Shown: positions 53,525 to 56,439 of the stretch, piece after piece | Numbering within the stretch: the stretch's first letter is position 1 | Layout: each line of letters starts with the position of its first letter | DNA from: Collybia mongolica | Taxonomy: Eukaryota; Basidiomycota; Agaricomycetes; Agaricales; Clitocybaceae | Assembly (NCBI GenBank): GCA_013420905.1 | Contig: JAAXNY010000006.1 | Span: forward strand, 558,001 to 622,000 | Direction of reading: 5' to 3' | Length of the DNA stretch: 64,000 nt | The notes under the pieces: generated by a model | Seen by the model: the letters and a program-made list of their open reading frames with translations, nothing else | Databases searched by the model: none | What the model was told of the DNA's origin: nothing | Translations under genes and position numbers: made by a program

Positions 53525-56439
53525 CTAAGGGTACCAAACCGTATTGCTCGGAGTCGAGCCTCCTGCAATACTTAGCTGAACAAGTTTGCTTATTCCATCA
53601 TCAAAATCAGTCAATAATCTGTCTTCAATTTCCTCATCTTGACTGCCTAACCTCGCAGCTGGGGTTTTGGCCGTGGTCTGTAGCTGAAAGTCCGTCAACG
53701 CATCGCTCGTGTCTTCACTCAAAAATCGATGTATTGCTGGATTGTATAGCTGATGCGAATTCACGTCGGGATGATAGTTAGGCAGATTGGGCAACCTTTT
53801 TTCCCGACTGGCAGTATATGTGCCGAGGGCGTGTACATTTGCTTCGGGAGCCTCCACATAGGATCTCCGCCGAGTGCGCTGGCTCGATCTCGTTGTACGC
53901 TTTGCGCGCGCAGGTTTCTTGGAGCTGGGCCCCGGTGCATCCGTGCCCGGATCCCCTGCTTGTACAGGTTTTGGGATATGAGGGGTGTAGATGCCCACGA
54001 CGGGCTTACTACTACTCTCTGGGACGTCTTGAACTCGAAAGAAGTTCAATAAACGTGATGACTTCTTGCTGGTCGGGCCTCTGAGTGCAACACGGATGGC
54101 GTATTGGAAGAGTTCCCTGACACCCTCCCCGGTCCTGGCGGAGCATTCAAGGTAGTGCTGTGCGCCTATCCCAAGTGCAACAGCCTTCCCCTAAGCAGTA
54201 GAAATTGCAGTTCAGAGTCTGCAGCGTTAGCATAATAATGACACACCTCATCGGAAGTAATAGGCCGTTGACTCATCCGACGGAGCTCTTCAATTACACG
54301 AGGGTCACGCCGAAGATCCTTCTTGCATCCAACAAGAATAATTGGCAAGTTGTGACAGAAGTGATTAATTTCAGAAATCCACTAGGAATGAATGATAGGT
54401 GAGAAGGGCAGATGTATGTCAATATAAAGTCCACAAGGACCTCAGAAGGCAAGCTATACGAACTTTTTCCATTACATTGTCAAGGGAATCCGGTGTGTCG
54501 ACCTTGAAGCAAATGAGGATGACATGCGAGTCTGGATATACGATGGGTCGGAGACGATCGTAATCTTCCTGACCTGGCGTATCCCACATCGCTAACTCGG
54601 TAGTTCGACCGTCAACTTCAACGCCAGTATGGTATTGATCAAACAAACTATTGGGTGGAGACTATGAGGGACGAGAAAAGAGGGCAAGTGTGAGTTGAGT
54701 GGATGGCCCGAGTATAAAACGGAATCATGGATTCGGGTTTAGGCACGGACGAGAAAGGAATCCTCACCTCCAGGAATACTCCCTTAGCAAATAGGTGCAA
54801 CAGACAACTCTGGACAGCACAAAAACAAAATTAGTAATCGTCGACACAAGCACGATCTCCACAACAGCGTTAGATATGTGAACGATTTTCTAACGTTCGT
54901 CATGATAGGGCCGTTAAAAAGGACCCACCTTTCCACATAGACCATCTCCAACAACTACAAGCTTGATTTTCTTCCTGCTTTTGGGCTTCGGGGCCCTTTT
55001 GGAGGCAGCCGTATTGCTCTTAGGCTCCTTCAATGGTTTCTCCAGCTTACTGGAGGGGGTAGGAGCTGCTGTATCCTTCTCTTCCAATTTTCCGGCTACT
55101 GACGCTGCATCTTCAGAGCCACCACCTTCATTGTCCGTTAGGCTATCGTATTCCTCATAATGTGACGCCGATCGCGAACTGGGAACCAATTTCTTAAAAT
55201 CGTCGCTTGACGCCTGACCCCAAGAGAGTGGTAGAAGTTCTTCTGCACTTGGTCTTGAATAAAATGGTGTGATTGCACGAAGCTTCCTTTGATGTACTCA
55301 TAGACACTTACCTCCGAAGGAGTCCAATGACGGCTCTAAGGCCTTCCCACCAGCAAGGAGCTTTGGAACCTTTTATATTGACACGTCTTGCCCATGTTAG
55401 GGTACCCGCAAGGATTGCCTCTCCCAAATAGTCTACACCTTGTATATCCAGGACAACATCTGGAGTTCCAGCATCAGTGTTGTCAGGAGGCACCAAATCG
55501 ATACCGATGTCTTTGAGAATGCCTTCCAAGCCCCGGAACAGCTTCGTTGCTACCGAACCATGGCTTGGATGATAGGTCCTGCGCCAAAAAGTGGACAGCC
55601 GAAGAATACCCCCCAGATATCGGATTGCTATAGCGCCCGAATGCGTCGTCGTTCCACTTGGCATAGTATTCATTAATTAGAAAAGGCATAAAGGGGTCAC
55701 GGCCACAGGTCGACTTACTCGCAATCAATGATAAAGAGCAGCTTTTCAATGATGCTGCCGCTCCCATCGCTATCTACATATCCTAGCTCTTTGGGTCGTG
55801 TAGACTCAACCAAATTTCCAATCTCATGTTCGGAGAGAAATGCGGCAGCAAGGTGCCTTTTGTATTCCCATTCTTTAGAACAAGGTCCGTCGCACTCCCA
55901 GAGTGCTAATATTGCTTCTTGCGACTCTCCTCCGCGTCTAAGCTCTTTGTTCAAGAGAAGTAACTGGCGTAGGCCAGGATATAAGCCTAGCAGCATTATG
56001 ATGCAGTTGAAGGCCTGAAGTCGCGTTTCGGACGCTTCGGAGCTTCGCCACGATATTCGGGTTAGAGTATTGTCGAGCTTCCAAAATAATTAGCCCACCG
56101 AAGTGTATAATGTACTAGCTCAATGCAATACTTCACTACGGGCAAAGTCCATGACACGACCACCTTGTATTTCCTACTGCGATACAGTTCCACAAGTTTT
56201 GACAAAGTTTGATCCTTGTCCCCAAAGGCCTCCTGAATGCGTTGAGTCATTGCCTCTGGGCCCAATCCTAGATGTTGTGCAATTTGATCCGCTTTCTTCG
56301 CAAGTCGTTCTCCAACGTCTGAATATAATTGATGTAATAAGGTGCCAGGCCCAAGATTCTGGCGAAATGCGATCGTCGTGTTGCCTCGGGTGGTGAGAGC
56401 GAATGGTGTGGATTCATCTCGTACATGAATAAGGGCCAT
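53525..56439 (-). CDS. fusion protein: unknown helical N-terminal region + divergent Rho-family GTPase + long tail
   Basis: Eight exons (56439-56099, 56042-55719, 55656-55312, 55253-54929, 54809-54768, 54661-54464, 54381-54247, 54190-53525) total 2,376 nt, exactly 792 codons. Residues ~1-340 are helical and unrecognised (TRGNTTIAFRQNLGPG, YPGLRQLLLLNKELRRGG, LFRGLEGILKDIGIDL). A charged Ser/Glu/Lys linker (~345-430) leads straight into a Rho-like domain: P-loop VVVGDGLCGKSCLL, switch I SPPNSLFDQYH, WDTPGQEDYDRLRPI, VGCKKDLRRDP with the Rho insert IEELRRMSQRPIT, and LECSARTGEGV. The exon carrying the P-loop has no Met before it, so the GTPase cannot start independently there. The ~180-residue tail is basic then acidic and ends TVWYP without a CAAX box. 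Probably a scaffold-linked switch; function unknown. Confidence 0.78.

Follow-up and report, generated by a model that had tools for sequence, protein, structure and literature searches.

Is the Rho-family GTPase encoded on the minus strand at 56439-53525 of this Collybia mongolica sequence truly fused to a long N-terminal region, and if so, what does that region do? The window, the whole 64,000-nucleotide stretch of DNA that was analyzed (C6:558001-622000 of the source genome, which has 46 Mb in 26 contigs), carries at this position eight exons that splice to 2376 bases, or 792 codons, encoding 791 residues followed by a single terminal stop, as an earlier note on this DNA had claimed. The gene model was read from the genome sequence alone. 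The locus is a single fusion gene, not two adjoining genes, because a single open exon holds the tail of the N-terminal domain (N-domain), the linker, and the P-loop, and a separate GTPase would lack a Met. Our preferred explanation, held with moderate confidence, is that an undescribed Agaricales adaptor domain with exchangeable signaling outputs is joined here to a re-tuned, apparently nonprenylated Rho1.

Structure of the fusion gene

The features of the gene are listed below, with amino acid (aa) positions of the fusion protein and the evidence for each. P0004 is a protein of Collybia nuda, and the RHO1 used for comparison is that of the same genome.

53525..56439, minus strand: whole coding region, eight exons, 791 aa and stop (GT-AG splicing, one stop)
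56099..56439, minus strand: exon 1, ATG at 56439, N-domain aa 1-114 (splicing; 83% identity to P0004 over exons 1-2)
55719..56042, minus strand: exon 2, N-domain (splicing; P0004 comparison)
55312..55656, minus strand: exon 3, N-domain with conserved IAIRYLGGIL (splicing; Mycena alignment; C. nuda protein compatible with the frame)
54929..55253, minus strand: exon 4, the fusion exon, a single open frame from the N-domain end through the linker to the P-loop (splicing; Mycena alignment)
54971..55180, minus strand: linker, aa 362-431, acidic then basic (N-domain ends at aa 361 by profile; GTPase starts at aa 432 by RHO1 alignment)
54929..54949, minus strand: P-loop GDGLCGK, aa 439-445, with Ser 446 opening exon 5 (splicing; RHO1 alignment)
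54768..54809, minus strand: exon 5, GTPase aa 446-459 (boundaries identical to RHO1)
54464..54661, minus strand: exon 6, GTPase aa 460-525, switch I and switch II (splicing; RHO1 alignment)
54623..54661, minus strand: switch I/effector loop, aa 460-472, equivalent to RHO1 residues 33-45 (11 of 13 residues unlike RHO1)
54247..54381, minus strand: exon 7, GTPase, G4 motif KKD (splicing; RHO1 alignment)
53525..54190, minus strand: exon 8, GTPase end, tail, and stop (splicing)
53528..54085, minus strand: C-terminal tail, aa 606-791, basic patch, without CAAX (splicing; Pfam scan of aa 614-791)

All seven introns begin with GT and end with AG and are 56 to 119 nucleotides (nt) long. Intron 1 (56098-56043, 56 nt) is supported by the P0004 junction HYTLR/SEASETRL. 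Another donor for this intron, at 56164 (781 aa), was rejected since P0004 and a branch-point-like CTCTAAC favor the exon end at 56099. The 781-aa model, which differs only near the intron 1 junction, was used for the Pfam scan, the search with residues 1-420, the Mycena alignment, the whole-protein profile search, and the BLASTP of the N-terminal region, and the 791-aa model was used elsewhere. Introns 2 and 3 are supported by Mycena proteins that align across them via the DCDG...THS and LLRQPKSEELLPKSW runs. The acceptor of exon 4, ttcaag, ends at 55254 and joins the preceding exon in phase, as had been proposed; the Mycena alignment crosses this splice, and the run LLRxPxxExLLPxSW, which spans the exon 3/4 junction, is common to the fusion protein and two Mycena proteins, P0001 and P0002. 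For introns 4 to 7, support comes from RHO1 of this genome, in which introns occur at these four codon boundaries as well.

Several observations argue against two neighboring genes, and in this the earlier note was right. First, exon 4 runs stop-free from the end of the N-domain through the linker into KIKLVVVGDGLCGK, where the GTPase starts, so that both halves stand in one frame; by our own arithmetic, a 70-codon linker would be open and in frame by chance in ∼1% of cases. Second, in-frame Met codons occur at residues 1, 64, 130, 484, 523, and 561. There is none between residues 130 and 484 and none in exon 4 before the P-loop, in keeping with what had been read from the sequence, and this leaves an independent GTPase without a start codon ahead of its P-loop. 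Third, the frame and all introns are intact, which also speaks against a decayed fusion. Finally, the annotated tail of P0004 appears to be a wrong-frame reading of exon 3. This protein is 83% identical to the fusion protein over exons 1-2, and its annotated model stops in exon 3, before any Rho half, with a tail that is off-frame. When this tail was back-translated into the window frame, 25 of 30 codons fit the window residue, compared to a mean of 7.8 in 20000 shuffles, of which none reached 25. It is therefore very probable that exon 3 of the C. nuda gene reads on like that of the window gene and that the C. nuda model is truncated. A second C. nuda protein, P0026, ends in IIDCE, at a point where the window frame would enter the intron 2 donor and a stop.

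The GTPase half and its relation to RHO1

Rho proteins are typically small switches anchored by a lipid. Judged by sequence, the GTPase half of the fusion protein is identified as a duplicate of such a protein, RHO1. The canonical RHO1 of the same genome lies at C10:73465-74478, and 124 of 174 residues (71%) are identical between aa 432-605 of the fusion protein and RHO1 residues 5-178. The four intron positions common to both genes are all phase 0, after GK, FPE, EK, and EE. The Pfam scan of the fusion protein gave a Ras match at 1.4e-40; only two families, Ras and Roc, passed the cut-off, and both fall on one stretch. The best PDB relatives were fungal Rho1 proteins (best E, 5.7e-77), with 794 distinct PDB sequences at E ≤ 0.001.

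The changes are not spread evenly. In the switch I/effector loop (RHO1 residues 33-45, an interval picked after viewing the alignment), 11 of 13 residues are changed, compared to 39 of 161 elsewhere (Fisher p, 2e-5). Substitutions relative to RHO1 include Y34 to Pro, T37 to Ser, A61 to Pro, and A15 to Leu. Thus the switch I Thr37 and conserved effector loop by which a Rho-type GTPase is defined are not found (T37S, Y34P). The nucleotide-binding motifs are present: G1 is GDGLCGKS with its Lys kept, G3 is DTPGQ with Gln63, G4 is CKKD, and G5 is SAR, with RHO1 itself having CKKD at G4 and SAK at G5. The C terminus has no CAAX, the last residues being NTVWYP, whereas RHO1 ends in CIVL. The tail is 186 residues long (aa 606-791), and its aa 614-791 gave no Pfam matches. 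Compared to the small single-domain RHO1, the fusion protein has gained a 431-residue N-terminal extension, this CAAX-less tail, and the rewritten loop.

A few other Rho- and Ras-type proteins were seen in the searches. P0037 of Amanita muscaria is Rho1-like and, as in the fusion protein, has a long C-terminal tail without CAAX. P0047 of Tulasnella sp. is a predicted protein of 965 residues, with a kinase domain and then a Rho1-like GTPase that, like the fusion protein, has TPGQ in switch II; it may represent another kind of Rho fusion, or its gene model may be a merged one. In the source genome, several Ras-family matches fall within ∼24 kb at C1:5747415-5771440 and may be small GTPase genes arrayed in tandem.

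The N-domain family in Agaricales

The N-terminal half contains no Pfam family above the cut-off. A word search with residues 1-420 scored 7991 candidates and gave two matches, and a five-row N-domain profile scored 7994 candidates and gave 19 annotated proteins at E ≤ 0.001, all of them at ≤4.3e-37. Both searches scored only the candidates with the most words in common, so the counts are minimum values, and the confinement to Agaricales is to be taken as provisional. The 19 proteins come from eight species: Mycena epipterygia (five), M. latifolia and M. vulgaris (three each), M. leptocephala, M. venus, and C. nuda (two each), and M. rebaudengoi and Roridomyces roridus (one each). C. nuda and R. 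roridus were placed in Agaricales from lineage records, and Mycena belongs to the same order. The profile matches aa 1-361 of the fusion protein at full length, a match that is circular since the fusion protein is itself one row of the profile. Noncircular support is provided by the single-sequence match of the fusion protein to P0001, at 5.2e-55. Identity to the fusion protein over its first ∼350 residues is 38% for P0001 (M. latifolia) and 36% for P0002 (M. vulgaris), and the N-domains of P0123/P0130, P0001, and P0002/P0126/P0129 are 35 to 39% identical to its own. The N-terminal region is thus a recurrent Agaricales domain without a Pfam model, one that is apparently undescribed.

A profile search with the whole protein gave 147 matches; with the Rho half still part of the profile, ordinary Rho proteins made up most of the best 120, which also included the two from C. 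nuda. When the N-terminal region was compared by BLASTP to 121 proteins, it matched only P0001, P0002, P0004, and P0026, and therefore none of the Rho proteins among the matches listed carries the N-domain. In the source genome, the N-domain was found at one locus only, using as queries its own domain, that of C. nuda P0026, and that of Mycena P0001. The P0001 domain recovered the window locus at 3.7e-15, showing that this search was sensitive to relatives that distant.

The earlier note had called the N-terminal region helical and suggested a structure predictor as a check. The predicted structure of a Mycena member is indeed all-helical, with only loose ARM/HEAT-like matches, and such a model would be compatible with an interaction domain. 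No fold family was assigned from the structure matches, and the lack of a match there is not evidence of a new fold; a profile search of PDB with the N-domain gave no credible relative (best E, 0.19).

What follows the N-domain varies among the 19 proteins. G-alpha is found in two (P0123, P0130), RhoGAP in one (P0001), PX plus PH in three (P0002, P0126, P0129), and dsRBD (P0132), UFD1 (P0136), and a partial caspase (P0128; profile positions 33-146 of 233) in one each. Below the Pfam cut-off were PX in P0134 and MLKL_N in P0125 (2.8e-5; 24.1 bits compared to a cut-off of 27), and 8 of the 19 had no credible C-terminal domain. A structure test of the MLKL-like end of P0125 failed to establish it: the PDB sequence search gave a best E of 0.16, and most of the region was modeled at a predicted local distance difference test score (pLDDT) of <50, so that the MLKL link stays weak. 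P0136 has the weakest N-domain match (4.3e-37) and is possibly two merged gene models. The named partner domains sit in Mycena and Roridomyces proteins, which have the same order of N-domain, linker, and signaling domain as the fusion protein but differ in having no Rho GTPase. In P0123, as in the fusion protein, the linker enters the GTPase just ahead of the P-loop. None of the 19 relatives has a Rho GTPase, and the Rho fusion is shown in one genome only. The earlier suggestion of an undescribed fusion with an unrecognized N-terminal region stands as to its architecture, but the N-terminal region does not stand alone: the N-domain recurs in Agaricales with many partners.

A tree of 20 N-domains places the window gene in a group with the two proteins from C. 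nuda (100/100). It also unites all four PX or PX-PH rows in a clade (100/98) and joins the G-alpha rows as a pair at 92/89, which is under the tool's star threshold; the deeper order was not resolved by the tree. Given the PX clade and the G-alpha pair, those partners look inherited, not misannotated. In the same-species pairs P0001/P0132, P0002/P0127, and P0126/P0134, the C-terminal parts are different, shorter, or unrecognized, and the two members are listed on contigs that are equally long. This suggests local duplication with a changed C-terminal part.

Possible roles of the fusion protein

One conserved domain with many outputs, each past a linker, is the pattern of an adaptor or recruitment domain. 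In the fusion protein, the helical N-domain (aa 1-361) would bear the duplicate of the RHO1 switch (aa 432-605) via a flexible linker. The N-domain may bind a partner or scaffold common to the family, and whatever domain is attached would then be brought to the same place: G-alpha, RhoGAP, PX-PH, caspase-type, and other domains in Mycena and a Rho GTPase here. As the GTPase keeps its main guanine-nucleotide motifs, it would be expected to bind nucleotide. Its effector loop is its most changed part, and altered partners are therefore expected. With this loop rewritten and the prenylation signal lost, the GTPase probably acts on non-RHO1 partners and is positioned by the N-domain instead of by lipid. 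G-alpha proteins have a lipidated N-terminus. In the G-alpha versions the N-domain takes the place of that end, and it could supply location there as well as in the Rho version.

A tentative possibility is that the N-domain belongs to a so far undescribed combinatorial signaling system of Agaricales, possibly one of recognition and cell death, whose helical platform has been shuffled among several outputs (Rho, G-alpha, RhoGAP, PX-PH, caspase-type, and MLKL-like). As its Rho version, the window gene would have an effector surface altered to make it a dedicated output or a bait, no longer a RHO1.

A specifically bait-like role seems unlikely. Here the N-domain family would act in fungal nonself or stress recognition, and the attached domains would be copies of signaling proteins that intruders target; tampering with a copy would trigger a response, perhaps cell death via the sister proteins with caspase-type and MLKL-like domains. 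The caspase-type domain of P0128, the weak MLKL_N of P0125, and the altered effector loop of the Rho copy are in line with this, and some copies look degenerate: in P0130 the G-alpha region has no P-loop, and switch II of P0123 reads DVGGAKSE, which we take to be departures from the G-alpha consensus. However, no NACHT or NB-ARC appeared in the Pfam results for the window protein or its 19 relatives, the MLKL_N match is below the cut-off in a poorly modeled region with no PDB sequence relative, and the source genome has a single N-domain gene at the sensitivity used. In the accessible text of a paper on fungal NLR effector domains (PMC9815663), the terms GTPase, G-alpha, Rho, armadillo, and Mycena are absent.

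We consider it quite improbable that the N-domain, as a putative solenoid, is an intramolecular regulator of its own GTPase, by analogy with SmgGDS and Ric-8, the ARM-repeat exchange factors and chaperones of RhoA and G-alpha, respectively. Last, a misreading that joined two neighboring genes, or a fusion in decay, is very improbable given exon 4 and the intact frame, although the gene model comes from genome sequence and the annotation of the C. nuda N-domain genes gives short proteins.

Other genes in the window

Immediately downstream of the fusion gene, and likewise on the minus strand, lie pieces of a short-chain dehydrogenase gene (51786-52459; larger match, 1.6e-15), and a long reading frame at 44719-46197 (plus strand) has a DUF6535 domain (E, 2.3e-53). 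By Pfam, the window also holds ordinary genes with a Vps4 C-terminal domain (13275-13877, plus strand), CAND1-like repeats (21217-22425, plus strand), and adenosine deaminase (43127-43864, minus strand).

Relation to known proteins

RhoBTB has BTB domains after its GTPase, and Miro combines EF hands with a second GTPase. The same Miro layout is given in a figure legend of PMC8146680. Both are, like the fusion protein, multidomain proteins with a Rho-type GTPase, but the fusion protein shows no BTB or EF-hand family in the Pfam scan, and the earlier view that its arrangement differs from theirs holds. It extends, by description in the accessible parts of PMC8146680, to two other fungal Ras-superfamily groups with extra or larger sequence: Trichoderma Rho6, with ∼130 extra residues and an altered G1 lysine, and the Big Ras GTPases, in which a G4 motif was not found. 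The fusion protein keeps the G1 Lys and has a G4 identical to that of RHO1. Neither the N-domain nor such a Rho fusion was described in the titles and abstract openings listed from the literature searched, which had partial coverage and few subscription papers. What is new is an apparently undescribed domain family, set in a protein of a known kind, the multidomain Rho GTPase.

A Rho1 copy that lacks the anchor signal, has a rewritten loop, and is joined to a domain found with G-alpha, RhoGAP, PX-PH, and caspase-type domains elsewhere in mushrooms points to an undescribed signaling toolkit of these fungi. The common N-domain offers a handle on it: identifying its binding partner could account for the entire set together.
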